DNA of 64,000 bases from Cladocopium goreaui (taxonomy: Eukaryota > Sar > Dinophyceae > Suessiales > Symbiodiniaceae): contig CAMXCT020001492.1 of assembly GCA_947184155.2 (NCBI GenBank), forward strand, positions 1-64,000, given 5' to 3'. The notes beneath the pieces were generated by a model. That model was not told the DNA's origin and ran no database searches. It worked only from the letters and a program-made list of their open reading frames with translations. Each line of letters starts with the position of its first letter. Position 1 is the first letter of the stretch. The position numbers and the translations under genes are program-made. Shown in pieces: positions 36,701-58,154 of this stretch.

Positions 36701-39700
36701 CCCGAGTTTTTGATGCAACAACACCCCGTTACATTTCGCGGTTGAATCCTTACGTTTGTGACTCAAATCACAAAGGTGATCCTTTTGGGGCAGAAATCCA
36801 GTCCCTTTTCTCTGAAAGACCTGGAACTTTAATGGATTCTTTTGGGAAAATGTGCCCCATATGGGAGAATCGGATCGAATGCTTTTGATGAATAGATTCT
36901 TAATGGCTTTTTCTTGGACCCCATGGTACCAAAAATATCAGGTACATGGTCTCTCCCTTGAATCCTTCATTCGGGGATTGTTGGTTTCAAAACACCCAAA
37001 TAATACTGCTTGGTGGTGCAATAACCATCTTGAAACGTATGAAAGTCAATGGGAAGGATAATCCTATATATTATGGACAATAAAAAATGTTTGAAACCAC
37101 CAACCAGAATATATAATGGTTGTGTTTGCAGATCATCATAACTCATGCCGTTCCATAACCGCTGTGTTTTGTTTGTTCCCATCCAAATCTGATGTTTGAT
37201 CCTCATGGTCCCCTCTATTCAATGGCCGCACACTGTAAATTGAATCTAAAGGAAATAACTATTCAAAACGACCACTCTGCCAGGGTACTGACTGCTTTCA
37301 AATCACCGGACAAAATATGAACGGTCATGCATGTGTTCTAATCCTGCAACCAATTTGAGGGACAACCACCAGAGTCTGATGCCCAGACAGAAATCTGAAA
37401 CATCATTTTCATTCATTTTCTCATCAAGATGATGTACCATCATTTGGGTATGAGTCAAAACCTTGGTACCCTAGTGAACCCCAAATAACTGGTAAATGGA
37501 TGTTCATCCTCCCAAATATAGCAAGATTGGTTTTGATACATCCCCATTTGGAGTAAAACCCCAAACAGTTTGGACAAACAGTCCCCTGTTTTTCAAGATG
37601 AAATTCAGTCGTTGGACCTCCAACATCCAACGGTGATCTTACTTCCGATGGAGCACCCAGCGGTATCATTTAAGGTTTCGTTTCACCCGTCCAACTGCGG
37701 GGATATATCTATATATATATATCTAATATAATACCCTCTGGTAAACTAACATAACTATGGGAAATCACCATGTTTATTGGGAAAACTCACTATTTTGATG
37801 GCCATTTTCAATAGCTATGTAACAAATTATCAGAGGGTATATGTACTCATGTATAAAAGCTTTATCCGCTTTATAAAAGCCTCAGTTGTATACCAACTTA
37901 CCCACTTTAAAAATATTGAAATTGCATGTGAACAATGACATGTTTTTGTTAAGTCATAAAGCTTTTTGTTAAACACTACAATTTCCTTAGTATATCCCAT
38001 CATTCCATCATATTTCCCGATAAACACCAGATTAAGTGTTTTGAAAAATTAAAACACACATTGAGACGAGTAACACCACCAAAAAAAAACATGAAACCCC
38101 AGCAAATCGCAGTTTACTATAACCTCTGGTAATTTCACACAATGGAAAATCATCATGCGACTGAAAACGGTTGGTGATCTCCAAATGGCGTCACTTTCCA
38201 TAGCTTTTTTTGTTTTCCCTCTGGTAATTTTTCACAGTTCGACTCCGAAGATTTGCAATTTTTAGTGGTTGAAACCTATGTTTCACTAATCTTCCAAACC
38301 CAAGTCATGCCAGGGTCGTCATGTTAATTTACTGGAGGCTTATTTATATAATTACACCAGACATCAGTAGCCCCAAAAGATAGAACAGCTTGCATTTACC
38401 ATCATTCACTATCGATGCTCCATGGTGCTGGACTATGAACCTACAAAACTGGGCCCAAAAAAAAGGGGTAAATGTAGGTAAATATTCCAGCACCATGGAG
38501 AATCTGGGTATAGAAAATGACCAATTCATAGACAATTTACCAATTATAGATAGTCGATTTTGGGGAGAATAAAAAAAATCTGGTTAAAACAATGCCATAA
38601 ACCACCCATTTGGGAATGGTGTATACCACCTATTTATGTTGATTTGGGGATGGGTCAAAACCCTATCCCCCTGTAGTTCACATCAAAATAGCTGGGATTT
38701 ATGGATGTTCATCCCCCTAAAAATGGTATTAATAGGTATTGATCCATAGCCATTTTACCTTTTCAATCAGTGCACGGTGCCGTTTCGTTTCCGGCACCTC
38801 CGCACCAGGAAGCCACTGAGGCAACCAGCAAGGCATCGCCCGCCTGGGAACGACGCGAATCGGAGCCGCGGCGGAATGATGGCAAAGACCGTGGCAAGAA
38901 ATGGGGAGAAAAGATGGACAAATTGGGGAAAATGGTGGAAACATTAGGGAAAAATCTGGAAAATGAATGAACATGATGGAAACAAGAGAACAAAAAGATG
39001 GAACACATGGGGAAAGTCCAGCAAAACATATGTAAACATGAGGGAAATGACGTGAAATTCCAACAAACACATTGGAATACATGAGGGAGACATCTTGAAA
39101 TTTTGAGGGAAATGCAGTGAACATATACTATTTTTAGGCAACTTAGGAGATGGATGCATGTTTCATGTTTCAGGGAAACGTATGGAAACTTGTCTAGGGA
39201 AATGATGGAAACATCAGTGACACAAATGATGCGTTAATTTGTGTATTTTATGGGAAATTAAGTATAAAACAATTGGGTTTGGGAGTATATTTTTGGGGGT
39301 TGTTGCAGGGTGGTTGTTTTAGCCTAATTATATAGAACGGTTGTGGTGCTGCTGTTTCTTCTTTTTCTACCAGCGACATTTAAGCATGAAAACCACATCA
39401 AAAGCTGGGATATTCGATGATTTTTGGGTCTCAAGACAACAACAAATGGGAATACCCAAAGAATTATGTATTGCAGTAACAGGTTTCGAATGGAACACAC
39501 AACAAATAATGAAAAACAAAAAGAGATCGCAACACCGGCAGAAAACACAAAACAAAAAACAAGAACAAAAACAGCAATGGAAAACATGATGATTTTAACA
39601 AAAAAAAGGTATAGAGAAAATCGGTCAAAGTATCTGAAAGCTGACTTTCCCATACTTTTGGATGAATATCCAGAAGTAGCAGCCCCTGCGGCCCTGCGCT

Positions 39701-42700
39701 TTCCCTTCCGTCCGCCTCATCGGCTTTGAAAAACAAACAGCTGCAGAAGCACTCCGCGAAGATAAAGGCGATTAGACCTGGCAAGCCAAGGGGATCATGC
39801 AGATCATGAGGTCAACATATTTGAACATGTTTTAACCAGATGGACCATATTAGGATCCATATGGATCCATATACCATCCATATACATCATATATCATCAT
39901 ATAGTATAATCATATACTGACTCGATATGATTGGATTGTGTTCTCTGGAAAAGCCATGGAGTTTAGGGTCCCCATGATCAGGTCCAGGCTGCATCCCATT
40001 ACCTTTGAGGATCTTGGTTCGGCTATTCAGAGCTCAGCAAGGCTATTTGCAGCAACGGTAGATTCGAAGCGTCGGAAGTTTGCCTCCAATATGCCCCTCG
40101 TAGAAGAGATCGCGAGTCCTTGGGACTTGGAACTGAACTTCGAAACGATGGGAGCATTGCATGATGCATTCTGGATGGGAAAGTCATGTTGGAAACAGAG
40201 TCTGGGCGTCCCAAAATGACCTTCGCAGTTGACTTAATTCAGCAAGACTCAAATAAGTCTTTGAGTTTGACTGACTTTGCGGGACTCCAAATATCTCCAA
40301 ATTCTCCGAAACTCCCGAGTTTTTTACGACCAATGCACTCACAACACCTGCCAGGCAAGACACTTTGGTAGTTCCCATTCATCGCAAAGCCTGGACCGAA
40401 GCCGGGCTTTGGCTTATGGCTATGGCCATGGCTCAAAATGAATTGGAAGGATCCCCCCCAAAAAAATGAAGGTTTCAATACCAAACTTAGACTGAGACGA
40501 TTTGGAGGTTTCCATAAATATGGGTATCCCAATAGCTGGATGGTTCATAATGGAAAATCCATCTATAAATGGATGTAAACTGGGGGTACCCCCATGACTT
40601 CGGAAACCTACATTTGAACATGACCATGTTTGGTCCCGGCTGGCAACTCACATTTTGACATATCCCGTATCCCATCCAACTTCCCTAGAGGGGACGCTTT
40701 TTAGCCGCCACCGTTGATATCATGACATGGGTGTGTCTAAAAATGGGGGCGGAACGGCGGAACCCACTTTTATGGCTGTTCATAGTATGTCATAGGGACA
40801 TTTTGATTAACCACTGGATTTGACGATATATTGTTTTTTCAGACAAAACCACATATGGGGATGGGTCAAAACCCTGGTACCTAGTGAACCCCAAAATAGC
40901 TGGTAAATGGATGTTCATCCCCCTAAAAATTGTATTAATAGGTATTGATCCATACCCATATCAACTTTCAAACACTCCTTCTCCTGATATATCTTGTCCA
41001 CCTGGGTCTGGGTCAAAGTTATACCCCAGAGGAAGGTTCTGCAAGTAGCACTTACAATGACCCAAGTTTCATGACTCATGAAATTCCCCCAAATTGTTTA
41101 CTCTCCGATAAATTTATCATAGCTATGGAAAATGTCCACTTTCTTATTGTTTTACCATGATTTACCCAAAATGTTGCTTGGTTTTACGTATCTATGTTAA
41201 ATTACCAGATGGCAAAAAGCGGTCCCACTGGGGGGCCAGGCCAAACAGCATCTTGCGATTGGCAACCACTCGGTGGACAAAAGCACTTCGACCACTCGAC
41301 CTCGAAAAATGGCGCCGCGCGGTGGCCTCCATGGAACCTCAAAACGACCTCTTCGGAGTTTTCAGCAAAAGGCCACGGGTCACAGACATATACAATAGTA
41401 ATCAACAGTATATAATTAAACTGAAATGTCTTTGTCTCAAACTGTCCCCAAGATCCCATTGTTGATTGTCATTCTCCCTGTTTTTCACACAATTTTGGGA
41501 TAACCCCCCTGGTTCAAAACAACACCTGATAGTTCGATACCCGCAAAAATATCCCCAGTCACGGTACGAAGCGTTACGCATGTCCGGTGCATCCACGGTC
41601 TCCCTTGAAAGATCTGAAACCACGACGCGCACCTCTTCTAAGGATTCAATATCTCCTTCCTCAGCAGTCAAGATCTCATATCTGGTCATGGAAGAACCAA
41701 AAAACAACATATAAACAACTATATATAGCACCCGCCAAAAAGATAGAACAGTTGGAAGATGTTGGAAGCCTGGAAGTAATGGGGAAAACATCATCGACAT
41801 ACCATCCTGGAAACACTGTTCGGCATCTTTCTGGGTACTGTAAAACATATTCGGTATTGCCCAGGTCAATCCCAAACAAAGTCGGATCTTGGGTTGGATG
41901 ATGCTCTTTCACCTTGCCCTTTCTATGGCAGTTATTTAGGGTGACATGGTTTTGCTTTGGGAAAGAGGACAAGTCACAAACAAAACTATATACAGTTGTT
42001 ACCCCTCTGTACAACCCCATTAATCTAGGTAAATTGTAATAATTCACCAACCTGAAATGTTCGGCTATAAGGGGATAATTCCCCGAATCCTAACCATGAT
42101 TATAGTGAGGGAGAACAGTGAGGTCACTATATATAATTTACCCAGATTCATCTTTTGAAGAGTCTCGGAACTAATAAACTTCTTCGCCAAACTGATGCAG
42201 CCAATCATTGTGGGTCATTGGGAACAGTATTACCTCCAGCCAACTGCCAGTCAAGAGTGAGATGTCACCCATTGTCACCCAATTGATTTTTCTGGTATAG
42301 AATGACTAGCAGTTTGCAAACTGGAAAATCGCCATCGACAATCATCGACATAGCTAAATAGGGACAGTTTATCAGAGAGTATCACTCCCAGACGCTCCAT
42401 GTGTGGAATATTTACCTACACTTGGTTGATTTTTGGGGTAAATGTATGTACCCTCTGGTGAACTAACATAGCAATGGAAAATCACCATTCTTAATGGGAA
42501 AATCCACTATAAATAGCCATTTTCCATTGCTATGTTAGTTCACCAGAGGGTAAATCTTCCAGCACCATGGAGCATCTGGGGCAGAAACGCTAGTCATAGC
42601 CAGGCATCCCAAGATTGACAGTTGCCATCGATGTCATAGCCGGTACCTGGTGACGCCGTGACGCCGTGATCGATCGACGAAGGACCATGGAAAAAAACGA

Positions 42701-45700
42701 TCGAAACGCAAAGAAGAACATGTTTTTATAGTGAGTTTATCGAGGCTACTCTGAATAACCTGGAATATCCGTTTAAGATACTGGTTGGTGGTATACCTAC
42801 CCCTCTGAAAAATGATGGAGTTCGTCAGTTGGGATTATTATTCCCAATATAGGGAAAAATAATGAAAAATAAAAGTCGTGTTCCAAACCACCAAGCAGAC
42901 TTCCTATCACTGCTAATATGGTGCATAGTCGCCAAACAGAGGCACGGCAAATCCAAAAATCCCCAGGGGACCACCACTTTGTGTCAATAACCATGTTAAA
43001 GCCCCGTTGTTCATGGTCAAGAACCATGCTAAATCTCATTTTTTTGCTAATTTAGCCTCCTGTAAACTGACATAGATGTGGAAAATCATCATGTTTTATA
43101 GGATTTTATAGATAAATCATCTATAAATGGACCATTTTCCACATTTATGCCAATTTATGCTAGTTTGCCCCAGGGTAATCCAGTTTTTTCACTCCACTTC
43201 ATCGGCCAGTCATGGCCACTTCATCGGCCAAGCGACAGCGGTAGGACTCAAACTCCACCCCCAGGGTGTACCTTGGAGTGGTGGATTAAGTCCCACAAAA
43301 GCTGGAAAAGTCATGTATCCCTATTTTAGTGACATTTTGTTTACCCTCCTGGTTGTGACTAACAGTTTGCTATTGCAAATGGCCCAGTCGAAATAGTTGA
43401 TTTTCCCATTGATTGAAAATGGTGATTTTCCATCGTTTTTTTGTATGTTTACCAGAGGGTACTCTTCTACCATTCTACCTGTAATATCCCTTTAAGATAC
43501 TGGTTGGTGGTATACCTACCCCTCTGAAAAATATGAGTTCGTCAGTTGGGATTATTGTTCCCAATATATGGAAAAATAAAAAATGTTCCAAACCTATATA
43601 TATATCATTATATATCTTTAGCACATCCAAGCGTACTGATCGATGCTCTGCTTGGTTCGGAAGAGGACACTGAAGAGCCCCACGTCGCGCTCCTGTCCAG
43701 CCGTTAGAAAATGTCTGACTGGGCCTCCAAGATGATTTCGCTATGAGACGCTTCTATGCTAATAAAGGTGGCTGCTACAGAGGGAAGGGAGAACTACTAT
43801 ATCTATTATTTTATCATTTATGTATGTTTATATATATACAGATATGATATGCATCAAGTTTCACTTCAGGTATGTTTCTGCTGTACTGAACATGCAGATT
43901 TCTTGTATTCGATCACTGCATTGAGGGCCAATAATCCCATCATGACCAAATTATCCAGTCTCAAGACATGTCTGGCAAGATCTTCAGAAACTTGTCTCAG
44001 TCTCAGATATGAGCATCAAACCATATCAAACCACATTAGGCCATCAGGTATCCAAGAAGCTGAATATTTACAAGTGGCACGAACAATGATCAACATCTCT
44101 TGGGAAAACAAAGCAAACTGCGAACAATCTGCACTTCTCATAATCATAATTCATGCACCTAAAAAAATCAACTAACCATAACTTGTGACCATTTGAGGTA
44201 TTTGGAGATGATTCAACTATTTGGGGATCATTCCAACTATAGTAATTATTCATACTTATCCAAGGCGACCATTCCAGCCCTTCCGGAGGCTCCTCGCAAG
44301 TCCACTCCGCGCAACTTTTTCCTTGGCACCCGCCGGCGACGAAAAAAAGGGGATCATCGTAGCACGGATGGAGAGACCCAGTGATTAATGGGACCATGAA
44401 TGTCAACCCCGGATTGATAAACCATGGTTTATTAATGTTTATTAATTAGAGGGCTACTCCCCAAATAGTCATAATCTGATACCCCCCAATTAAAAAGCCG
44501 TTTCGGGTTTATTAATCCGGGGTTGACATTATACATAATTTGATGATGGGATAATGATAGAAGAACATAGAATAACCTGGGACAATACGAGAAAGTATGG
44601 GATCATCATTTGTGTGTGTGTCTGAATCAGGACTTTGCAACCCAACAAAAAAGGCTGCCATGTGCGCTAGTGCAGCCAGCTGCATGTCAAAATTCAGAAC
44701 CATAACAAAAGGACAATTGACTTTGGTTGTGATATGTCGCGATGTAGTACTGAACCACTCCAGATCATTCCAGAATTGCATGGTTTCTCTGCAGGAAAAC
44801 AATGGGTTCACTGGTAAAAAAAAATGCCAGAACATGCCTTCTCAGGAGCCAGTTCCATGAATCATCGACAACTCTCTAATTTAGTTGGACACCCTTGTGA
44901 AGCACAGAGAGATGTCTGCGGGGGCCCCTACCAGTAGAAATGGCTAAAGATGACAAACCATTAAACCTCAATGGGCCGCCTCATTATACTTCATGGAAAC
45001 CCCATGAATCTCTATCAAGCCCCATTTTTTAACCCATTAAACCCACCCATTCAATCCCAATCAATTCCATTAGATTTCATGAAACAAATCCATTAGATTC
45101 CCATGGAAATCTCCATCCCATATGCTCCATGGTGCTGGAATATTTATACACCAACAAAACTACCCTTGTCCATTTTATCACCATCAGTTTTCTAGGTTTT
45201 TCTATACCAGCACCGTTTTGTTCGCATCTGATCCCATGAAAAATTGCTCCCTGGTGATCTCTCCATCAAGGCACCGTTGTAGTTTTCCGTCTTGCAGCGG
45301 CACATTTGGATCTCGGTCTCAATCCTCGGATCGCGGGGGACGACCACCGTTCTGAATGTTGGCTTTTTCTAGGCTGCCGTCAGTTGGGAAACATATCTAT
45401 CACTACTAGGAACATCAAGTATGATACAATTCAGAGATTGTATCTAATATAATATAATCAGCTATAGTATGTATATCTATAGTCTATAGCAAATATCGAT
45501 TTATACAGGATGGGGCCCAAGATAGCGTACTGCCTTATGTTTGTGGCTGAATTCCATGGTCTATGGTAGATATAACGAACTAGTTTTCATGGAGTTTATA
45601 AACCAACAAACATAACTGGGGAGCACCATCCTGTATGGGGGTTTCCTAAAATGGAGATACCCCAATAGCTGGATGGTTTATAAGGGAAAATTCATCTATA

Positions 45701-48700
45701 AATGGATGATTTGGAGGTACCCCTATTTCAGGAAACCTCCATATATGTGTATATAATCATATTATCTAGACACATCATATAATGATTTAAAATGTACACA
45801 TATGATTTGATGAAATGTTCATTAAATCCCATGATATACATGTTATAAATTTTACATATTACATAATATGCAAAATGTTAGAATCTTCATTCCCCCAAAA
45901 CGTTTTCGAGTCACATGGGAAACTTTCACACACCCACGGCCTTCTAGGCCGTGGCAGGTCAATATCATGAGCATCCTATGGTCATATTGTGATCATGAGA
46001 AAACATTGGAAACCCACTCATAATATAATATACATATATAGGATGGTTTTAACAATATATCTATTCAATGTAGGATGGTATATAGATAATATATTCATAA
46101 TGAGCATCCCATATATTGGTTATAAATCCAATGGTTAAAACATGGGGATTCCAATTAGAAATGTACCTTGTATGATCCCGAGGGGGTCCAGTGGAAAAAT
46201 CAGCCCAGGGATGGAAGGTACATTTCACATCTCCGACATCCCCGGTTCCGATCATCATGGATCATCATTTTCCCAATGTAAATTCCATGGGAGATCTTCA
46301 GGATCCTAAAATGGAGCTACGTTAGTACCATATTATCGGCCATATTTTGTGGGGATATCCTTCATTTCTCCTGGTGCTAAACGCAGGGAATGTTCGGGAA
46401 TGATCCATAATCACTAGTAATAATCATCCCAGCAACCCCCATTCCCCCATTCCCATCCATTCCCTACGTTCAGCACCAGTAAGATTAGCTATGTTCATCC
46501 TATTTCAATGGCTATGATCCTGTTTCCAATGGCATTTTCCACCATTTCCATGGCCATTTCAGAGCCCGTTTTCGAAGCCCAATTCAAGGGAAAATCTAGG
46601 GCTTTGTAGATCCAATGCCAAATCCATTGAAAAGTGCCGAGCCACTCTCGCCATCGGGCGCAGGTCCGTCGTGCAATCATGGTGTTGTCACCTAGAGGCT
46701 CGGATGAGGAAAGAACGTTGGAGTGGTTTCAGGGAACATATAACTATGGAAAATCACGATTTTCAATGGGTAAATCCACTATAAACGGCCCATTTTCCAT
46801 AGCTTTTTGTTAAATTACCAGAGGGTATTCTTCATGTGTTGACCTTTGCAATCCTTTGCATCGAACTTCCATCAACTTCCCGATCCAAGGAACCATTCAC
46901 GATGCAAACATCACCCCACCAGAAGTGCACATGTCGAGCCGCCGGATTGTAGGCAAACCTCGTGGAACAGAAATGTTCATGGCATTTCATGGGAATATAG
47001 TGGATAGTAGGTTTTTATATACGAGTAATGGGATACATAATGACGTAATGGGCTATTTATGTATATATATATAAGTATAAGTATATAACAACCAACAATA
47101 TGACATATGGCTTGTGGTCATCCATCTGCCATGGAAATCCCAACATCATAGATACATCACTGGGAAAAAAAACACAAATCCCCATGAAAATGAAGTGATG
47201 ATCATGCCCAAACATACAATCCATCTTTGACCATGGTATCTGGATGTATCTGGACTTCTTCACCAAGTCCAGCCCAACAAATTGGCAAAGCCAAGGCCAA
47301 TTTTGACGGCCGCTTCAACTGGTTTTGGGATGTTCTGAGTTGGGGGCCCTATTCTAAGAAGCTTCAGAAATGTCTCAGGTCAATTCACACATGGAGGTTT
47401 CCAAAAATAGGGGAATTCCCCAAAAATCATCCATTTGATGTTCGGATTTTCCATGAAATAAACCATCCAGCGAGCTTGGGGTACCCCCAGTCCTCGTTTT
47501 CCGTTAAAAATTAAGGGACATACTACAGGATGGGGCCCCCAGTCGATAGCGTTCAGTTGCCTTACGTTTGTGGCTGAATTCTATGGTTTATGGTAGATAT
47601 AACGAACTAGTTAATGTGGGTTATTTCATGGTTTATAAAGCAACAAACATAACTGGGGGGCCCACCCTGTACAGGAAACCATGGTCTTTCCGATTTGTTT
47701 TTTTGCTTTTCTTGTGGGGACTTTATTATAAATGTGTTACATCATCCTATACAAACTTCATTAGCCATTCATCGGTTTCCATTTGTTTGCCGGGGGTGGA
47801 TTTGTTTGACCATCTAAGATTCCAGGGACGGGATGTTCACAAAAAGCAACATGGGATGGCTATAGTCGATCTTGTGGGGATAGTCCAAGTCTTTCTATCT
47901 ACCCTACTAAGACTTGCTTCCAAGATCCCTACCGACCTTAAAGGGGGGGGAATCTTAAAAAATGTAACTTACATTTTTGGGGATTTGAACCTTGAAAATG
48001 TAAGATTACATGTTTATTTCTCTTGACGTTTTGATACCTTAAACAAGGTAACTTACATTTTGGGGAGGTCCCTCAAAATATAAGTCCAGCTAAATATAAG
48101 TTACATTTTTTAAGGTATCAAAAACAGTGGGTGAGCGAAAAAAGAATCCTTGGGTGGGAGGGTCTCTAAATGTAGCTTGCGCCCCTCCGAAGGTAGTTTG
48201 TAACCCTTGGGCCTTTTCCAGGGGAAAGAGTCATGTACACAGAGTTTAGTGGGTACAAAGTTACATTTTCAAGACCTCCTCAAAACATGTCTAGCTTACA
48301 TTTTTTGACCCCACCCCTCCGAAAAATGTAAGTTCCACTAAGGGTGGGGATCTGCCAGGGTCAGGTCCGAAGCTCTTCCAGTTTCTAGGGCTGCAACTGA
48401 AGCTATCAGCTATCGTAAGTAGGGAATGAATACTATTGGACAAATCGTCGCCAGTATACATTCCCAAGATGATACTATTGGATATTTACTGGAAGTATTT
48501 ACCCTAAGTATGATCAATTCGATTGGATGGTAGGGAGTCTCATATCATCACACGTAAATTACGGTAAATTCAAACGGCTCGCTGAAGATGATCAACAGCT
48601 GATCGCCAAAGTCTTCCAAGAGATGTAGCACGGCTTTAGTGAAGTTACCTTTGGGGGGGCTCATTCCTTCAGATGCATTAGTAATTCTGGGTCATTCACT

Positions 48701-51700
48701 TGAGTGTATAACCCTCAAAAATATGCAAGAATCACGGACCCTCCTGGGTGTGTCTGAACATGGGCTATACCTCCCAATCTTGGCTATTTCTTGGAAAATG
48801 AACACATGAAGCAATGGATTTAGGGCACCCTATTTTCAACCCCAAATGCTTCAAAATGGTCCCTATCATCCCTACAGTTATGGCTCTTTACATGTATATA
48901 TATATATGTATTATATATATATATATATGAATTATTATGTATATATATGATATATATATATATATATGTCACTAAGTCACCCCATTGATGGAATGATAAC
49001 CACATCAAAAATCCTCATGGAAAAACCGTCCCGAAATCATCGATTTTAATCTTGTCCCAGGTGCAGAGGGGGCCAATCCAGCGTACTGGTCTGCAAACCT
49101 GGCGGGGCAAACCTGGCGATGTTCTAATGGGGTACCCTCTGGTAATTTAACAAATAGCTATTGAAAATGACCATTTATAGTGAGTTTTCCCGTTAAAAAT
49201 GGTGATTTTCCATAGCTATGTTAGTTTACCAGAGGGTAGCTCAAAAAAATGAGTGTTTTTTTTGCAAAGGTTCTAATGTGGTAAAGCCAATGATGTCAAC
49301 TATCACTGGATTGGTTTAAGAGAAATTTTACGACCCTATTTTTTGATGGGTTTTCCCCATGGTTTCCGGTTTCAATTTTCCCTTCAATCCCATCAAACTA
49401 TCCTGCAAAATCACCAGACATGGGTGGTTTTGTAACCCTCCACTTCAATGGTAGCTTTGTAAAAAAAAAATGTTGGGTTTACCGCAAGCCAAAGCCAACG
49501 CTGTCAAAACTGAAAATCCCTCCAGTAAACTAACAGTTTGCAATGGAAAATAGACCCTTTATAGGTATTTATAATTTATAAATATTATATAAATGGATTG
49601 ATTTATAATAATTAAATATATATATATATATTATATTAAAGATAGATATTCATATAAGTAGATTATTGATTTACCTATTAAGATAGATATTCATAGCTAT
49701 GTTAAATTGCTGGTAAGTTGCATTATTTAACTGTAATTGCATGTTCTGAGCTTCCCGGTTTAGAAAGACCTTTGAAAACAAGGTCTTTTTTGCAAGACAT
49801 GTTCAACTTGACTTGCACGGCTAAATAAGTATGTCTTGGTATTCAAAGTGATTTGCCAAATCTTGAGGTGCCAAATCCTACATAACAAATCCTTAGAATT
49901 TCTACCTCAGAATAAACATATCCCACTTGTACATAAACCGAGCACTCAACCGTAGCAATCCATGTCTTCACCAGGCCACGTCTGGAGGCGTCAGCTGCTT
50001 TCGTTGGAAGCCCAGCATGCTGCAGCTCCGTTTGAAGAGCCGTGGTATTCCATTTCTCGAGATAGGCCTGGGTATGTTGGGTGCGACTCAAAGCATCCTC
50101 CACGGTTTCTCTGGAAAAACACTATTTTAATAGGTAAAACAGCTGTAAATATCAATGGTCCATTTTCCATGGCAAACTGTTAGAAAAGCCCTAACTTTCA
50201 CGGTTTAGAAAATCATTGACCGAAAATGTGCAAGTTTTTCTCATTGTTTCCCCTATTAATATTATGATTGGACACAAATTATCATAATTTTCCATGTTAA
50301 ATGTTATAACAATTTGGCCATTTGGCAGGCATATCGTATTTATTTAATTTTCCATATTCATTTCATTTTGCATGTATTCAAAGTTCAAAATTACATCATC
50401 ATAATTTTCCATATCACCATTTGGGGGGCATAAGCTCCATTTCTGGACAGAACCAAATGCTTACCCCTGTTCCACCAGGCCGTTCACAGAGACAAGCCCC
50501 TGGTCATCCCGGGCCATGGCAATCCAAATATCATGGGGAATGTTAAAATGACCTATGAACATCTGTGAAAATGGATGGATGAAAATGATATTCATAGAAT
50601 AGATAACATAGAAAATAGATTAGATGACATAGAAAATTAGATACATTCCATGAAACAAAACTCTGAAAATGGATTGATGACCATCCTTTGCTATCTGTAC
50701 TGCAATCTACTCAAGTTTTGACCAGTCACAGGTGGGAATCCCTACCGCTTTTTGTACCCGGAAAAAGTCACTGGTTGATGATCACCATCCCTATTAAAAA
50801 AACAGACATTGACTTACTGGTGCTTAGTAGGGAAATGGATGGGTTGCTGGGGGTTGCTGGGATGATTATTACTGGTGATTATGGATCATTCCCGAAAATT
50901 CCCTGCTAAGCACCAGTAAGTTGAAGGATGGAATACCACCTTATCAGACACTCCCTGAGCCCAGGAGCCAAGTAATCTCCAATGAGCGCTGCCTCTTGAT
51001 CCGCTTCCTCCGATCAGTGCGGATGAAACACACTCCAAGAATAGGTTGTGGGACATATGACCACAGATAATACAATATATATATATATGTAATATTATAT
51101 CATATATATATACATATATATATATGTTATGTATAATAATATATATATAACATAATATATATATATACCAAGATATACCAATGTTTCAGGAACCGTTCAG
51201 GAAAAATCCAGTTAGACATCGTGTTGAGTTGTCTCTTAGGTGAAAAAAAGGCCCTTGGTTCTATCGTCTTCATCTCCACATGGGTCATTTTTTCACCAGT
51301 AAATCAGGTGAGAAAAATGTGTTGTTGCCTCTAGGCCTGGTCTCTGGAAATTTCTGAAATAGGCACTAGAGTATGTTAATGACTGCTTGGTGGTTGAGCC
51401 CTACCCCTCTGAAAAATGATGGAGTGAGTTCGTCAGTTGGGATGATGACATCCCAACTGAATGGAAAGTCATAAAATTCCATGGTTCCAAACCACCAATC
51501 AGATGATGGTTTAAAACCCCTGTAAGTGCTACAGAAACACATTGAGCCAATCAACCAGGGTCTGTCGGGTCACCCTTAAAGATTCGACCGACCCTTGGTC
51601 GGTCTCCACCAACCCTATTAGAATCCAAACAAACCCTAGAAATAAGGAATATTAGGGGTATATTCTCCCTGTATCTCCCTGTTAAATCCAGATTTTTTTG

Positions 51701-53643: not shown

Positions 53644-53676
<33 letters not shown>

Positions 53677-56600
53677 CCGCCGTCCGCCGTCCATCCTGGT
53701 GCTGAGTATGCATTGGTCGATGGGGTTCCCAGAAATGCATGGGGGATCCCCAATAGCTCGCTGGATGGTTTATTTCATGGAACATCCGAACATAAAATGG
53801 ATGATTTGGGGGTACTCCCATGACTTAGGAAACCTCCATAACTTGGTTTTGGTGATGTGGATTTTGGTGTAACCCGTGGCGTTGTATGTTGAATTGCATC
53901 CCATTAGATATTCTCAGCATGATCATGCAAATCCTCCATGATTTATGATCGCTTCATCCTCATGTCTTCGCTCATTATACGATATCATGAGGTATCTAAT
54001 CACCATGATCCTTACTTGATGACAGATTTTCCACCATTTTCCCATGAATTTCTCTTTTGAGGCCTGGACAAAAGATGAATGAATCCCCTATACCCTATGA
54101 AAAACATCCCATTCAAACCCTGAACAAAAACCCCATCAAACCCCGTGAAAAACCCTATCACAAACTATACGTACAAACCATCGTGGTTTTATGCACAGAA
54201 AGTGGCCCCGGTCCCATGACGCAAATGCGGCAGCCAGCCATGGTTCAATGAACATCCCATTTATTCACTATGAATTCGTTAATTCACCCCCTATTCAATC
54301 ACCATTAAATCACCATTAAATCAGCACTAAATCAGCACTAAATCACCATGAAATCACCATTACATTGCCAATCTTAGATACCTGGCAAAATAAAAAAAAT
54401 AGCTGCTTAGTGGATATTCCCATAGCAAAAGATTTCTCAGAATTCTCAAGTACCCATCCAAGGTTGACCTAGATTACATTCCTGCGGCAAAGCAAGGATT
54501 GCTGTGGGTAAAACAATGTCATAAACCATCCCCCAGTCATCACTATTTTGATAGGTGCTCCAGGAAAATGAGTGGTAAAAATGACATTGTTTTAGCCAAT
54601 AATCACCATGATATTTCCAATAAAATCACCATTAAATCACCAAGAAATCACCATTATAATCCCCATTAATCATCATTAATCATCATTAATCCCCATGAAT
54701 CACCATTATATTCCCAATGCGGCAAGGCAAGGCGCATGTGGAAGGGGCTGTACCAACAACTCACCGTCTCTCCGTCGTCATCGCGGCGCAGCTCGCAGAT
54801 CTGTTGGTCAGCTTCCAAGGCATGGCAGCTCCTAAGGGATCTCAGTGATAAACGAAAAATGGTGGATTTATATGGATTTATATGGTGGTTATTTATATGG
54901 ATGGAACAAAAACTGATTTCTATGGATGTTATTGACTTATATGGATTTGTATGGTTATTTATATGAAAAAATGTGATTTCTATGGATTTATTTTGATTTA
55001 TATGGTTTTGTATGGTGATTTACATGGTGACTTCAAAAATGAAATTGGTGAAAAAAACATTGTGATTTATGGATTTAACTAACGGTTTTAGGTGCTGCAC
55101 ACATGCTGATTTACATGGATTTGTATTTGATGTACCATCTGGTTATTTAACATAGCCATGGAAAAACCCTTGTAAATGGAGGTTTTAATGGGAAAATCAT
55201 CTATAAATGGGCCATTTTCCATGGCTATGTTAAATAACCAGAGGGTACTCACTTAGATGGAGATATCACTTTGCTGCATTCTCCAGCCAATTTTTGATGG
55301 TCTGGAACCAAACAGTGCCAGTCTCAAAAACTATTCGCGACATGTCTTGTAGGCTCTTTGTTGATGTGTATAATGTACACATATTACGCATTTATACCGT
55401 CTATAGCAGCAACAAAAAAAGTGACTATCCAAGGTTTCGAGGGATTTAACTTGATGGATTTGACAAAAATATCAGGTTCCAGTGAAGGAATCTTAAAGGG
55501 ATTTAAAGGGTACCATGGGGGGTAGTAAAAAGTATGTTCTCCACAAAACAAACATGCACAATGTGGGCAACCCAATAAAAAAACCCACCATTTTGGATAG
55601 GATTTATTGTGATTTTAGGGATGGTTTTAAAGTTTTTCTTCGTGGGTTTACCCAATCATTTCTTTTACAGCACCATGATATTCTGGTTGCAGTCATTTTT
55701 GCCCATCCAATATCATTCCGTTGAGGCCCGTGCCCCTGTGTTAAAAGATATTCCTATTCATGGATTGGCTTGAGGAACCACCAAAATAAAACATATTCCC
55801 TATAGATTCCCTATATTGTAGTGGGTTTCCCATGGAGAATTTATAAAAAATCATCTGAAGATCCAAGTATTCTAAACTCCTGAGAACAGGTCACCAGGTG
55901 GTCAATCCTGGAATAAACCATCAGTCATAGAAAAAAATGCTGGCCAAGTGGATAAATTCACAGACCTGAAACAATCTGGTTGGTGGTTTTAACCATCTTG
56001 AAAAATATGAGTCAGTTGGGATGATTATTCCCAATATGTGGGAAAATAAAATTCATGTTCCAAACCACCAACCAGTTATTATGATAATTACTCCTACAAA
56101 CCATCATTCCAGTGACGTCACATTGAGGTCATAAGATATTTTTTCCAGATATATCGGATTGAAATGACAAGTTTTGACCATGTTTCCACTGGACCACAGA
56201 TTTTGACCCAAAACAGTCATCATAATTTGACCCTTAGCCTCCAACTAACATAGCTATCGTATAGATGATCCATTTAAAATCGATGATTTAGCTATAAAAA
56301 AAGGTGATTTTCCAGTTCGCTTGTTGTGTGTTTACTGGATGGTACCCGGCCTGGTAAACGTTGACACAACGAACTGGAAAATCACCATTTTTAATAAGTC
56401 CTAGAACTAAGGTTCTATAATGTTATATATCATTATAAACCAAGATAACTATGGAAAATCACCATGTTTCATGGGAAAACTCACGGAATAATGGCCATGT
56501 TCTATGTCGCTTTTTGTGTGTTTAGGCCGGGAAAATCGACCATGTTTCCACCAAGGCGCCATGCCTTGCAGTAGTTGCCGTTTGTGGCGATCTCATGACC

Positions 56601-58154
56601 TAATGCGGAACGATGGGGAAGAATGGTTGGTGGAACACGATGGCAAAATATGGAGGAAAATGCAAGGAAATTCAATGATACAATGGAGGAACATGGTGGA
56701 AAATAGTGGAAAATCAGGGAAAGATGGGGAAAAACACTGGAAAACGATGGTGGAAAATGGATTGAACATTCTCCAAATGTTGGAAATGGTGGAGTTGCGA
56801 TGAATCCGCATCCAATAAGTAGGGATGATGTGAGTGCTTGGATGAGGCTGCTAGTAGACAAATATTGATCATCAAGGTGTGTGTGTGTATATATTAATAT
56901 ACATACATATTATATCAGATGATACTACTTGTACATCAAATAACACTCCACCAGAAGTGACTCATTTGACAGCGCCCCTGAAAAACATCCAGTTTTTTTA
57001 TCAGCAATGTACGTTTAGCAAATCCTCTCGCTCGAGGGACATTTGCAAACACCAAAGTCGTGCTCGCCACAATTCCACTCGTGCATCGTCCAAACTTCGC
57101 AGAAGCCGTTGCTATGCATGGTGACCTGAGCGTTGTGTAAAAATCCTCTGGAAAAGGAAACCTGGAAACGAACTCTACGCCTGAGAGTAATGAAATTTCC
57201 TTAGCTGTTTCTGGTAGGGTAAAACATTATCTGATTTATCCGGATGGTGGTTTCTAAACCCTCTGAAAAATATGAAAGTCAATTGGGATCATTATTCCCA
57301 ATATATGGAAAAATAAAATTCATGTTCCAAACCACCAACCAGTTATTATGATACAACCACAGCTGTCGTTCATGTCGTTCTTGTATCGTCACTTTTCGTG
57401 GCCGTTTCACCGAACCGAACCGAACCGCGAGGTTTCCGCCCAGCTGCGCATTGATAGTCCTCCGATTCCAAATGCGGATGCCAAATCCAGGATGGAATTC
57501 CGCGCCAAATTCCATCCACCATACGTTCTGTCCTTGCTCGCTGCTCCACCACCACCAACAACAGCAACAACAACAAGAACAACAACAACAACATGACGAT
57601 TATCATCATCATCATCATCATCATAGTAATGAGACACATCCAACTGTATAGAAAATTGGTTCTTTCAAACGTGTCCGCCATGTTTGTTCAATCTTTCGGT
57701 CAACACATCGCGCCGCTGTTCACCGCTCCTCTGGTTGAAGGAGTCACCATCTGGGCGCCACTCTAAATGTGCCGTGGGTTCCTCAGCGGCGTCGTTTTGT
57801 GATGTTCACCCGTTTGCGTCCTTTTAGGTGTTGCTCTGATTGACATTCTCCATCCTGAAAAATCCAGGATCCCTCTGGTAATGACTAACAGTTTGCGACA
57901 TTGAAAATGGCCTATTTAATTCGTCGATTTACCTATTAAAGATGGTGATTTTCCATAGCTTTTTGTACGTTTACCAGAGGGTATACAAACTCCCCATCTT
58001 TGTCACCTGCCTGATCCAGATACCGAGCATCAACGCAGCCGCATCCTTGTAACATGGTGGCGCTCATTGCAAGGACGGCAAAGCCCACAGCGTAGCGCCA
58101 GCGCCCGGACGAAGGCGAGGGCATAGAGGGCAGGGGGAGCGATAGCGAAGGCAT
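29937..58154 (-). CDS. Gene 2: large multi-exon membrane protein, function unknown
   Basis: At least 18 minus-strand exons, most joined with consistent phase and mostly AG|G acceptors. The product opens with a hydrophobic N-terminus (RYAVGFAVLAMSATMLQG), then cysteine-rich exons, a segment resembling a SAP-like helix pair, then membrane segments LIAFIFAECFCSCLFF, LILLPFLVLTYGLG and FYGFLFCGGFFWFIRIMG, and a basic tail. This suggests a surface or endomembrane protein with cysteine-rich lumenal part. I do not recognise the family. The stop codon was not placed, and some internal exons are surely missing. Confidence 0.6.
30147..30360. mobile_element. MITE family A, tandem one-and-a-half copies
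   Basis: TACCCTCTGGTAATTTAACA to CCAGAGGGATCCAGAGGGTA (30,269), followed directly by a second right half ending GTTCGTTTACCAGAGGGTA. Confidence 0.75.
30528..30642. repeat. AT microsatellite
   Basis: (AT)n/(TATG)n run within gene 2. Confidence 0.85.
32707..32839. mobile_element. family G element
   Basis: ACAGGATGGGGGCCCCCAGT at the left, TTGGGGCCCATCCTG at the right, with CCATAAACCATAGTTAA inside. Inverse orientation to 45,505 and 47,525. Confidence 0.75.
33367..33770. repeat. AT microsatellites flanking a gene 2 exon
   Basis: (AT)n runs at 33,374-33,400 and 33,668-33,762 bracket the exon at 33,519-33,609. Confidence 0.85.
33519..33609 (-). CDS. gene 2 exon, basic tail
   Basis: Acceptor CGCAG|GTATGA; encodes (Q)YERPSNKVRMQRGASKILG then RGGSRSIQPGE; donor GAA|GTGAAG. 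Positively charged, consistent with a cytosolic segment after the last helix. Confidence 0.6.
33771..34055. repeat. G/C-rich repeat with TAGTAGTTAG units
   Basis: TATACAGGAGCTATGTTCCC recurs at 33,811, 33,921 and 34,010. Between copies are (TAGTAGTTAG)n and long G runs (GGGTAGGGGGTGGGG) opposed by C runs. Confidence 0.9.
34063..34275. repeat. AT/TATG microsatellite
   Basis: (TATA)n, (ATGT)n and (TTTA)n runs. Confidence 0.85.
34691..34787 (-). CDS. gene 2 exon, membrane segment
   Basis: Acceptor CCGAG|GTTTCT; encodes FYGFLFCGGFFWFIRIMGCC then CLIATTIKIPK; donor AAGCA|GCGCGG (GC) forms CAG with the next exon. Confidence 0.65.
35170..35322 (-). CDS. possible gene 2 exon, frame uncertain
   Basis: After AAG|GATTGA two frames stay open: LTPSSAHFAYHGFANIGVGI and IDAIQCPLCLPWICKHWG. 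Either could be coding. Confidence 0.3.
35391..35502. mobile_element. family D element
   Basis: TTGGCAGTGTGTCAAAACC to GGTATTGATCCATACCCAT. Confidence 0.8.
35671..35772. mobile_element. family I element
   Basis: ATTGCCAATCTTAGATACC to CAAGTACCCATCGTTGACC; a second copy is at 54,365. Confidence 0.6.
35774..35876. mobile_element. MITE family A copy
   Basis: TACCCTCCGGTAAACTAACA to TTGTATGTTTACCAGATAT, with a damaged right end. Confidence 0.65.
36132..36245. mobile_element. MITE family B copy
   Basis: TACCATCTGGTTATTTAACA to GTTAGTCAGAACCAGATGGA. Confidence 0.75.
36280..36340 (-). CDS. gene 2 exon, membrane segment
   Basis: Acceptor GGCAG|GTCTCA; encodes (S)LILLPFLVLTYGLGPSAAL, a membrane helix. 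3' end approximate. Confidence 0.55.
36570..36645 (-). CDS. gene 2 exon
   Basis: Acceptor GGAAG|GTCGCC; encodes VAGRTAGLVERKPVCQTFEV then FELWN; donor AACA|GCAATA (GC). Confidence 0.5.
37006..37107. mobile_element. family E element
   Basis: CTGCTTGGTGGTGCAATAACC to TGAAACCACCAACCAG. Confidence 0.65.
37442..37549. mobile_element. family D element
   Basis: ATTTGGGTATGAGTCAAAACC to GGTTTTGATACATCCCCAT. Confidence 0.7.
37732..37839. mobile_element. MITE family A copy
   Basis: TACCCTCTGGTAAACTAACA to GTAACAAATTATCAGAGGGTA. Confidence 0.85.
38226..38342. mobile_element. MITE family C, diverged copy
   Basis: CCTCTGGTAATTTTTCACAG left; GCCAGGGTCGTCATGTTAAT right; interior CCAACC-type core as at 22,787. 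It overlaps a decayed family A copy starting near 38,122. Confidence 0.45.
38413..38506. mobile_element. family J element (empty site)
   Basis: GATGCTCCATGGTGCTGGAC to TATTCCAGCACCATGGAG, with GGGTAAATGTAGGTAAATA before the right end. The same sequence at 42,436 is interrupted by a MITE. Confidence 0.75.
38647..38753. mobile_element. family D element at a splice donor
   Basis: GGGGATGGGTCAAAACCC to GGTATTGATCCATAGCCAT. Its right end lies five bases from the donor of the 39-nt gene 2 exon. Confidence 0.75.
38759..38797 (-). CDS. gene 2 micro-exon (39 nt)
   Basis: Acceptor GCGGAG|GTGCCG; 13 codons VPETKRHRALIEK; canonical donor AAAAG|GTAAAA. A family D element starts five bases into the intron. 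Confidence 0.55.
39710..39777 (-). CDS. gene 2 exon, membrane segment
   Basis: Acceptor GCCAG|GTCTAA; encodes (C)LIAFIFAECFCSCLFFK, a membrane helix with cysteines, then an acidic DEADG stretch. 3' end approximate (several GC/GA donors). Confidence 0.6.
40054..40118 (-). CDS. gene 2 exon
   Basis: Acceptor CCAAG|GACTCG; encodes TRDLFYEGHIGGKLPTLRIY then R; donor CGTT|GCTGCA (GC), forming TGT with the next exon. Confidence 0.6.
40494..40612. mobile_element. family F element
   Basis: TGGAGGTTTCCATAAATATGG to CCATGACTTCGGAAACCTAC, with CCCAATAGCTGGATGGTTCA inside. Confidence 0.7.
40855..40959. mobile_element. family D element
   Basis: ATGGGGATGGGTCAAAACCC to GGTATTGATCCATACCCAT. Confidence 0.8.
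41098..41214. mobile_element. MITE family A, decayed
   Basis: TTACTCTCCGATAAATTTATC to GTTAAATTACCAGATGGCA. Confidence 0.5.
41225..41348 (-). CDS. gene 2 exon
   Basis: Acceptor GAAGAG|GTCGTT. With the base left by the exon before, it reads (R)RFEVPWRPPRGAIFRGRV then VEVLLSTEWLPIARC. 3' end approximate; a decayed MITE follows at once. Confidence 0.55.
41578..41659 (-). CDS. gene 2 exon
   Basis: Acceptor GCTGAG|GAAGGA; encodes EGDIESLEEVRVVVSDLSRE then TVDAPDM; donor ATGC|GTAACG. Confidence 0.65.
42391..42578. mobile_element. family J element interrupted by a MITE
   Basis: GACGCTCCATGTGTGGAATAT to ATCTTCCAGCACCATGGAGC, split at 42,449-42,552 by a family A MITE. The J halves rejoin to match 38,413-38,506. 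Confidence 0.8.
42449..42552. mobile_element. MITE family A copy nested in family J
   Basis: TACCCTCTGGTGAACTAACA to GTTAGTTCACCAGAGGGTA. Inverted ends are CCCTCTGGTGAAC/GTTCACCAGAGGG, flanked by TA on both sides. Confidence 0.9.
42781..42898. mobile_element. family E element
   Basis: CTGGTTGGTGGTATACCTACC to CCAAACCACCAAGCAG. Confidence 0.8.
43207..43271 (-). CDS. gene 2 exon
   Basis: Acceptor CCAAG|GTACAC; encodes YTLGVEFESYRCRLADEVAM; donor ACTG|GCCGAT (GC). A duplicated CTTCATCGGCCA makes alternative donors possible. Confidence 0.65.
43342..43461. mobile_element. MITE family A copy
   Basis: TACCCTCCTGGTTGTGACTA to TTGTATGTTTACCAGAGGGTA, inside the gene 2 intron 43,272-43,624. Confidence 0.75.
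43500..43594. mobile_element. family E element, right end lost
   Basis: CTGGTTGGTGGTATACCTACC through AATGTTCCAAACC; the last ACCAACCAG is replaced by (TA)n. Confidence 0.75.
43625..43692 (-). CDS. gene 2 exon
   Basis: Acceptor GGACAG|GAGCGC; encodes ERDVGLFSVLFRTKQSIDQY then AW; donor TGGAT|GTGCTA. In phase with the next exon. Confidence 0.65.
45240..45324 (-). CDS. gene 2 exon (CRCK motif)
   Basis: Acceptor ATCCGAG|GATTGA; encodes IETEIQMCRCKTENYNGALM. 3' end approximate. Confidence 0.55.
45505..45634. mobile_element. family G element
   Basis: ACAGGATGGGGCCCAAGATA to AACTGGGGAGCACCATCCTGT. Confidence 0.75.
45636..45743. mobile_element. family F element
   Basis: GGGGGTTTCCTAAAATGGAGA to CCCCTATTTCAGGAAACCTCC, immediately beside the family G copy. 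Confidence 0.75.
46603..46691 (-). CDS. gene 2 exon (Trp/Arg-rich)
   Basis: Acceptor CTCTAG|GTGACA; encodes DNTMIARRTCARWREWLGTF then QWIWHWIYK; donor AAA|GCCCTA (GC). Other frames are open, but this one fits the phase from the exon before. Confidence 0.45.
46728..46827. mobile_element. MITE family A copy filling a gene 2 intron
   Basis: AACATATAACTATGGAAAATC to TTTGTTAAATTACCAGAGGGTA. It occupies 100 of the 162 nt between gene 2 exons at 46,854 and 46,691. The left end is degraded. Confidence 0.7.
46854..46958 (-). CDS. gene 2 exon (FAYNPAARHVHFWWGD)
   Basis: Acceptor CACGAG|GTTTGC; encodes (W)FAYNPAARHVHFWWGDVCI then VNGSLDREVDGSSMQ. The 3' end may be an internal GGAA|GTTCGA donor, which fits the next exon in phase. 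Confidence 0.6.
47264..47348 (-). CDS. gene 2 exon (IPKPVEAAVKIG)
   Basis: Acceptor AATAG|GGCCCC; encodes PPTQNIPKPVEAAVKIGLGF then ANLLGWT; donor ACTTG|GTGAAG. Two leftover bases complete a Trp codon in the next exon. Confidence 0.6.
47391..47490. mobile_element. family F element
   Basis: ATGGAGGTTTCCAAAAATAGG to CCAGCGAGCTTGGGGTACCCC. Confidence 0.7.
47525..47671. mobile_element. family G element
   Basis: ACAGGATGGGGCCCCCAGTC to AACTGGGGGGCCCACCCTGTA. Confidence 0.8.
47935..48350. repeat. cluster of AAAATGTAACTTACATTTT palindromes
   Basis: AAAAATGTAA/TTACATTTTT motifs occur at least eight times on both strands (about 47,958, 48,000, 48,050, 48,110, 48,260, 48,297, 48,324), several next to GGGGAGG/CCCCTCC. 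Palindromic half-sites suggest hairpin potential. Confidence 0.6.
48890..48968. repeat. AT microsatellite
   Basis: (TATA)n with ATTATG interruptions. Confidence 0.9.
49133..49238. mobile_element. MITE family A copy
   Basis: TACCCTCTGGTAATTTAACA to GTTAGTTTACCAGAGGGTA. Confidence 0.9.
49945..50103 (-). CDS. gene 2 probable exon with SAP-like helix pair
   Basis: Encodes AYLEKWNTTALQTELQHAGL then PTKAADASRRGLVKTWIATV. The L-x2-EL-x3-GLPTKA pattern resembles the SAP helix-loop-helix, though that would be unusual in a membrane protein. Boundaries uncertain; it could belong to a separate gene. Confidence 0.45.
50474..50535 (-). CDS. gene 2 probable exon, frame uncertain
   Basis: Two readings compete: IAMARDDQGLVSVNGLVEQ, which lacks a nearby acceptor, and ACLCERPGGTG after an AG|G at GACCAG|GGGCTT. 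Confidence 0.35.
50940..51007 (-). CDS. gene 2 exon 7
   Basis: Acceptor CGGAG|GAAGCG, donor ATAAG|GTGGTA. Encodes EADQEAALIGDYLAPGLREC. Confidence 0.5.
51068..51175. repeat. AT microsatellite
   Basis: (AT)n/(ATAATA)n run upstream of a gene 2 exon. Confidence 0.9.
51383..51502. mobile_element. family E element
   Basis: CTGCTTGGTGGTTGAGCCC to CCAAACCACCAATCAG. Confidence 0.75.
51854..51990. mobile_element. family F element, diverged
   Basis: AGAGGTTTCTCAAAATCGGGG through CTTTGGGGTACCCCGATTTT. Confidence 0.5.
52190..52430. repeat. GATGAT/AATGATAGCAATGA degenerate repeat
   Basis: Purine-rich, strand-asymmetric units of GATGATGGTG, AGCAATGA and AGTGATGAAGTG. Confidence 0.5.
52975..53098 (-). 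CDS. gene 2 exon 6
   Basis: Acceptor TTGCCAG|GAACTG. Encodes NWDVYDALLERQSGGALTTG then ETVYRWSLGCNGRFEATMG, open for over 40 codons. The 3' end is approximate. Confidence 0.6.
53131..53223. mobile_element. MITE family C copy
   Basis: AAATTAACAGAGACCCTGCCA left; TCAGGGTCGAACTGTTAAATT then ACCAGGGGGTA right. It starts about 30 nt upstream of the gene 2 exon at 53,098. Confidence 0.65.
53230..53352. mobile_element. family H element
   Basis: TCATCCCACTTAGTAAG left and CTGACTAAGTGGGATGA right are inverted; interior AGTTATAAGTGGATTAACCC. Confidence 0.7.
53538..53645. mobile_element. MITE family A copy
   Basis: TACCCTCTGGTAAACTAACA to GTTAAATTACCAGAGGGTA. Confidence 0.9.
53718..53838. mobile_element. 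family F element
   Basis: GATGGGGTTCCCAGAAATGC to CCATGACTTAGGAAACCTCC. Confidence 0.65.
54280..54720. repeat. AAATCACCATT degenerate tandem with a family I copy
   Basis: AAATCACCATT units recur at 54,298-54,365 and 54,600-54,715, split by a family I element (54,365-54,474). Confidence 0.6.
54765..54841 (-). CDS. gene 2 exon 5
   Basis: Acceptor CTTAG|GAGCTG, donor GAGACG|GTGAGT. The best frame gives SCHALEADQQICELRRDDDG. Another open frame exists, so frame is likely but not certain. Confidence 0.5.
54858..55035. repeat. TTTATATGGA degenerate tandem
   Basis: GATTTATATGG and GGTTATTTATATGG units. Confidence 0.6.
55133..55247. mobile_element. MITE family B copy
   Basis: TACCATCTGGTTATTTAACA to TGTTAAATAACCAGAGGGTA, a well-kept copy. 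Confidence 0.85.
55976..56075. mobile_element. family E element
   Basis: CTGGTTGGTGGTTTTAACC to CCAAACCACCAACCAG. Confidence 0.85.
56239..56346. mobile_element. MITE family A, diverged
   Basis: TAGCCTCCAACTAACATAGC to TTGTGTGTTTACTGGATGGTA. Confidence 0.5.
56552..56599 (-). CDS. gene 2 exon 4
   Basis: Acceptor ATTAG|GTCATG; encodes (S)HEIATNGNYCKAWRL. Donor CTTG|GTGGAA. One base left by exon 3 (A) completes a Ser codon. Confidence 0.5.
57032..57125 (-). CDS. gene 2 exon 3, cysteine-rich
   Basis: Acceptor GCTCAG|GTCACC. Encodes VTMHSNGFCEVWTMHEWNCG then EHDFGVCKCPS. Four cysteines in about 20 residues suggest a disulfide-bonded lumenal module. Confidence 0.6.
57239..57342. mobile_element. 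family E element
   Basis: CCGGATGGTGGTTTCTAAACC to CCAAACCACCAACCAG. Confidence 0.8.
57547..57625. repeat. CAA/ATC trinucleotide microsatellite
   Basis: (CAA)n followed by (ATC)n. Confidence 0.9.
57671..57781 (-). CDS. gene 2 exon 2
   Basis: Acceptor GCTGAG|GAACCC. Encodes EPTAHLEWRPDGDSFNQRSG then EQRRDVLTERLNKHGGH. Phase 0 with exon 1. The 3' end is taken at CAC|GTTTGA. Confidence 0.65.
57869..57983. mobile_element. MITE family A copy filling gene 2 intron 1
   Basis: CCCTCTGGTAATGACTAACA to TTGTACGTTTACCAGAGGGTA. The intron (57,782-57,992) is 211 nt, so the element is over half of it. Confidence 0.8.
57993..58154 (-). CDS. gene 2 exon 1 (signal or anchor)
   Basis: 54 codons from ATG; Pro/Ser-rich start, then RYAVGFAVLAMSATMLQGCG, a signal peptide or anchor, then an acidic stretch DQAGDKDG. 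Donor GGG|GAGTTT (GA). A family A MITE begins 9 nt into the intron. Confidence 0.7.

Follow-up and report, generated by a model that had tools for sequence, protein, structure and literature searches.

Intron-borne MITEs of the dinoflagellate Cladocopium goreaui: a randomly oriented family and a family locked to one strand

The first 64,000 bases of contig C1492 of Cladocopium goreaui (bases 1-64,000, referred to here as the window) contain a candidate gene, gene 2, in which three introns are occupied largely by short inverted-repeat elements. Whether such elements create introns or accumulate in them passively was left open by the first-pass annotation of this locus. Set against the whole genome (1,165,616,438 bases in 6,202 contigs), the answer depends on the family: for the elements named A below, the evidence favours passive accumulation, and for those named B an introner origin is conceivable, though unlikely. 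We consider it probable that the three introns began as ordinary spliceosomal introns, for the most part short, and that MITEs invaded them later, with family A a passive occupant and family B strand-locked in long chromosome blocks.

The elements and the genes that hold them

Self-comparison of the window resolved the short inverted-repeat elements into several MITE families, labelled A to G, distributed over its whole length. The elements are real and more frequent than chance; exact matches to the TIR of the main family number 8 for TACCCTCTGGTAA and 12 for TTACCAGAGGGTA, and with up to three mismatches these rise to 34 and 29, compared with 4-11 and 7-13 in five mononucleotide shuffles. 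Family A, with approximately 26 copies along the entire window, both in the three introns and elsewhere, has the TIR CCCTCTGGTAA and a target duplication of TA. The latter was found in 27 of 34 copies among the matches listed, a few of which are duplicates of one locus, and was never longer. The element is short and hairpin-forming (fold z-scores of -12.5 and -13.5), as exemplified by a full, near-perfect palindrome flanked by TA at 26,260-26,363; this and the other family A, C and D elements located below are given without strand. No match to the family A pattern was found in the viral-contig or genome-contig collections, each searched with one pattern.

Stowaway/mariner MITEs are palindromic hairpins of about 100 nt that duplicate TA and are frequent in introns. 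Family A resembles them in length, palindromic hairpin, TA duplication and intronic location, and differs in having a TIR of its own. With its TA target and short hairpin, it is a palindromic MITE of mariner/Stowaway-like type, and its insertions face either way.

Family B is distinguished by the TIR CTGGTTGGTGGTTT and a 4-bp target duplication, the combination expected of a DNA transposon. The duplication is exact in 20 of 39 end pairs among the matches listed, some of which are false pairings, compared with 0.15 expected. Within the window, its copies lie on the minus strand at 10,906-11,024, 20,047-20,152 (target duplication AATC), 37,006-37,107 (TATT), 42,772-42,862, 43,490-43,594, 51,383-51,502 (TCAT), 55,974-56,086 and 57,238-57,345 (ATAA), the last of these serving as the genome query. 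Apart from the MITEs, GC skew is extreme (0.79) at 12,501-13,300 of the window, next to a tandem array whose near-identical units are spaced at 44 bases and are shared with 11,165-11,320.

Splice sites were assigned by the dinoflagellate rule G[TCA]..AG. Across the HSP90 and dynein genes, 101 introns defined by homology have GC (48), GT (30) and GA (23) donors, and the first base of the following exon is G in 94; these fit the published values of 43.6% GC, 36.6% GT and 19.8% GA donors with 96.1% AGG acceptors (PMC9412976, in part). Gene 2 itself is an ab initio gene with predicted splice sites. It has no Pfam family above cut-off (a single chance-level match, E 0.087), and the exons searched returned no match in the genome outside the window and hence no paralogue. 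The neighbouring SulP gene, with a minus-strand exon at 27,357-27,465, is real, being supported by similarity to PF00916 (E 6.8e-5, with a score slightly below cut-off) and PDB 5iof (E 4.9e-7), together with codon usage; its exons searched, too, found no paralogue outside the window. An open frame of 240 amino acids on the minus strand at 23,700-24,440 has a weak CxC5 match (E 0.0031, under the curated cut-off).

Of the three gene 2 introns initially described as phase-consistent, all on the minus strand, two stand as drawn. The first, at 57,782-57,992, is GA..AG and of phase 0 on both sides, and the third, at 43,272-43,624, is GT..AG, of phase 2, and joins DQYAW-M-YTLGVEF. The second, originally placed at 46,692-46,853, fails on an AG+G boundary and a TGA stop, and was re-drawn by hand as a GT..AG intron of 145 nt and phase 0 at 46,699-46,843. 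Codon usage, modelled on 7,227 nt of coding sequence defined by homology, gave good support to the two exons flanking the third intron (p 0.005 and 0.002) and weak support to those flanking the second (p 0.058 and 0.09). At the first intron, exon 2 scored p 0.031, and exon 1 is weakly supported, its best frame differing from that proposed and containing a stop. The element lengths first reported for these introns were close to ours: the first holds a family A copy of 111 nt (57,871-57,981), the second a family A copy of 86-88 nt with a degraded 3' end (46,740-46,827), and the third a family A copy of 116 nt (43,346-43,461) together with the 105-nt, sense-oriented family B copy at 43,490-43,594. 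It had also been proposed that elements start within 5-12 nt of three donors. They do sit 3-17 nt from the proposed donors, but the narrower range applies to 57,992 (9-11 nt), approximately to 38,758, where a family C element at 38,641-38,755 lies about 3-5 nt inside, and not to the SulP donor at 27,356, which is separated by about 17 nt, as placed by BLAST, from a family D element at 27,244-27,339.

Family A and the age of its host introns

The proximity of a family A copy to the donor at 57,992, the large share of the three introns taken up by elements, and the presence of donor-like and acceptor-like strings in the family A TIRs would all be accounted for if family A elements were introners that made these introns by inserting into exons, with splice sites CTG/GTAA and TTACCAG/A (slashes marking the cuts) lying in the TIRs. 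On such an origin, the reading frame should be open again once the element is cut out together with one copy of its target duplication. After removal of the elements from the three introns, at the boundaries first proposed, 100, 76 and 132 nt are left, each residue being interrupted by stops in frame, and the frame through the residue of the second intron as re-drawn also meets a TGA immediately. Nor does the removal of family A copies restore open frames more than excision at random places does (median of 84 compared with 88 amino acids).

Introns defined by homology provided an independent view. These were mapped in conserved genes of the same genome with a spliced aligner that accepts GT, GC and GA donors, and comprised 91 introns of HSP90 and dynein genes, after three doubtful HSP90 rows were dropped, and 58 introns in 12 dynein loci with well-aligned exons on both sides. 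Two duplicated dynein genes, on contigs C224 and C781, are 96.8% identical over 10,379 aligned columns. The C781 gene carries a family A copy (L048:3341-3450) with no counterpart in C224, and its host intron is present in both twins (C224, 3010-4529; C781, 1867-3491); the intron is therefore older than the element. At this insertion, the only one of family A for which an element-free twin is known, the intron is thus not missing where the element is missing. The same intron without its element had been named in advance as the case that would speak against intron gain; it was found for this one insertion, in a dynein gene of this genome, and not for gene 2, where the search yielded no paralogue to compare. 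As a separate observation on these twins, a stretch of 1,233 bp in the first dynein intron is present only in C224 (C224:100401-112400 compared with C781:8001-18900), and it is possibly another mobile element.

The placement of elements within introns was examined in the 58 dynein introns, leaving aside fragments shorter than 40 nt and the elements on C781 that duplicate those on C224. The 18 elements that remained are at distances of 41-510 nt from the closest splice site with no fixed offset, and all 8 family A copies among them are at least 41 nt away. The gap close to splice sites is not significant, as random placement would put 2.2 of the 18 within 40 nt (P of none, 0.08) and 0.7 within 12 nt (P of none, 0.48). 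In 11 HSP90 loci covering 65 kb, none of the element families searched for was found, and an exact inverted repeat of at least 8 nt at both intron ends was present in 1 of the 91 introns, compared with 0.9% by re-pairing. A search for a spliced-leader relic returned none with up to three mismatches.

With stops in the residues, an element-free twin, no fixed offset and a random orientation (21:22, as detailed below), family A is best regarded as having accumulated passively, and it is very improbable that its insertions made the introns in which it is found. It differs from dinoflagellate introners in its TA duplication, its lack of a preferred orientation and the absence of a fixed place within the intron. 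The introner search of Gozashti et al. (2022; PMC9860276, in part) was designed to exclude most secondary insertions like those of family A. Introner elements have also been defined by repeat pattern (Farhat et al., 2021, PMC7789003; Dougan et al., 2023, PMC10666404; each in part), and these share with the present elements the occurrence of inverted repeats in introns. As far as the scoring is set out in those parts, it rests on repeats, inverted and direct, close to the ends of the intron, and could take in passive MITEs that lie beside a splice site, such as the family A copy in intron 57,782-57,992.

Two further features of the conserved genes may be recorded. The HSP90 loci L029-L037 encode near-identical proteins and differ in intron positions, those at residues 123 and 138, for example, occurring only in L030/L031. 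Contigs C1 and C2380 may come from a bacterium instead of the dinoflagellate, since each has three chaperonin (Cpn60_TCP1) matches of about 500 amino acids that lack introns, as in some bacteria.

Orientation of family B

At loci where the direction of the gene could be assigned, with matches shorter than 40 nt dropped, all 18 family B copies are in the sense orientation, compared with 21:22 for the two orientations of family A and 5:4 for those of family D; the corresponding counts for the remaining families are 5:1 (C), 6:1 (E), 1:2 (F) and 2:0 (G). Six of the 18 are on C224, three on C5921, one on C3013 and one at 130 kb of C1492, and seven are in the window, where they are sense relative to SulP and gene 2. 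Homology gives the direction of the gene for ten copies, in three dynein genes, and all ten are sense; for the seven in the window it depends on SulP and gene 2, and for the copy at 130 kb it was assumed.

The terminal 22 bases of family B have 10,042 exact matches in the genome, nearly equally divided between forward (4,977) and reverse (5,065). Orientation statistics were drawn from the first 100 places per pattern among the matches listed (for family B, 100 of the 10,042), and there the copies are arranged in long runs of one orientation, such as 20 consecutive minus-strand copies spanning 1.0 Mb of C2 and 18 consecutive plus-strand copies on C14. Neighbouring copies 2-100 kb apart among the matches listed share their orientation in 67 of 67 pairs (95% lower bound, 0.956). 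The same test with asymmetric cores of the other families, again among the matches listed and with contigs having a single listed place dropped, gave agreement in 18 of 37 pairs for A, 12 of 24 for C and 23 of 42 for E; the difference between B and these pooled controls has a p of 3e-14 among the matches listed. Since C and E are random in this test, their lean in the small gene sample does not represent a genome-wide lock. Family A copies located inside B blocks are divided 15:8.

Some family B copies do occur in tandem (C3:581581-581708 and C14:671384-671902), and a lock of this form could in principle be spurious, produced by duplicating a single oriented copy in tandem or along with a larger segment. 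This was rejected, and we regard it as extremely unlikely: the 67 agreeing pairs among the matches listed are those left after exclusion of pairs less than 2 kb apart, the B copies within one dynein gene are diverged and have differing target duplications, and families A, C and E would have shared in any such duplications, yet are randomly oriented. Counting against the favoured reading, two switches occur at distances above 100 kb, where 10 of 12 neighbours agree among the matches listed, and on C3312 a plus-strand TCP1 gene runs in the direction contrary to that of a B copy at a distance of 183 kb. Gene orientation has been reported to be less uniform, by a different measure, with 34.7% of ten-gene windows free of any change (PMC9412976, in part).

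Possible causes of the lock and their meaning

We infer that the lock of family B follows transcription rather than, for example, the direction of replication. Since the same genes contain copies of families A and D facing either way, insertion in the antisense direction is in itself tolerated, and the lock needs a cause specific to B: either insertion that senses direction or a specific harm done by antisense B. It is on this ground that we lean slightly toward the former, with the purging of antisense copies nearly as likely. The polarity of B would, in that case, be set at the moment of insertion through coupling to the direction of transcription or of the replication fork in one-way gene arrays. 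We put forward tentatively that transcription, or a direction of replication that follows it, dictates which way B inserts, such that its many thousands of copies point with the local one-way gene array.

Family B also possesses, on one strand only, a block resembling a 3' splice site, composed of a branch-point-like CTGAC, pyrimidines and AG, which is kept in 24 of 25 copies; the branch-point-like motif is present in 24 and the AG following the pyrimidine run likewise in 24 of the 25, the copy at L008 having been judged by eye to be without AG. As part of the transcription-set reading, this one-sided block may tie B to RNA processing, a suggestion we hold with equal caution.

Strand-specific sequence of this kind also speaks for the purging of antisense B copies by selection, for example, because they expose a cryptic RNA-processing signal, leaving sense copies along transcribed domains. 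Long one-way arrays of genes are believed to be transcribed as single units (PMC11071213, in part), and hence the harm of an antisense B could reach into spacers. A lock that is complete in 67 of 67 pairs among the matches listed is, however, stronger than selection alone would be expected to give. Furthermore, the obvious antisense signal, AATAAA or ATTAAA, is missing in 9 of the 25 copies, 6 of which are in gene-oriented loci and are still sense, making an antisense poly(A) signal a poor cause of the lock. Purging is a serious competitor, credited slightly less than insertion polarity.

The layout of family B invites a third reading, in which it is an introner lineage whose 4-bp target supplies the G[TCA] donor and whose sense orientation is kept as the only one that can be spliced. 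With its terminal CAACCAG and internal CTGAC..TTTTTCAG, in addition to its TIR and 4-bp duplication, B resembles the introner of Symbiodinium microadriaticum, which combines a 4-bp duplication and TIR with a 3' splice site of its own (Gozashti et al., 2022; PMC9860276, in part), and the two also share the sense orientation. The likeness to this family and to those of P. glacialis (Roy et al., 2023, as summarised in part of PMC11453091) is one of layout. Among the 101 homology-defined introns, a 4-nt repeat at the boundaries is present in 8 (shuffle mean 2.3, with a maximum of 8 in 1000), and CTTGG, with up to one mismatch, is found at intron positions +5 to +9 in 26, compared with 1-4 at four other offsets; this excess and the boundary repeats in HSP90 and dynein introns are a possible trace of past introner insertion. 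Nevertheless, dinoflagellate introners reach the splice sites and fill the intron (PMC9860276, in part), and no examined B copy does so. None constitutes a whole intron in the 58 dynein introns, none of the 39 end pairs among the matches listed lies in a convincing coding frame, and B is for these reasons not classed as an introner. For copies inside introns, moreover, splicing-out supplies no reason for a lock, and we think it unlikely that B belongs to an introner lineage.

The literature searched, including the parts of PMC8110479, PMC11071213 and PMC9412976 drawn upon, yielded no account of a dinoflagellate MITE that is locked to one strand; the work of Roy et al. (2023), which lies outside that search, may bear on the matter. 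One-way orientation along stretches of chromosome is unusual for a transposon. Scans that define introners by repeat pattern can lump passive, randomly oriented MITEs together with elements tied to the direction of transcription, two kinds that are separated here, and orientation relative to the gene offers a cheap, genome-wide test by which to tell them apart. If the lock is set at insertion, this would be unusual behaviour for a transposon, and B would be a polarity-sensing TIR transposon that provides a built-in map of chromosome polarity domains. If it is set by selection, whole domains, perhaps including their spacers, would be under strand-specific constraint. With either cause, family B could serve to mark the polarity of domains in dinoflagellate assemblies without recourse to gene models, and the link among gene array, transcription and transposition would thereby become directly testable.
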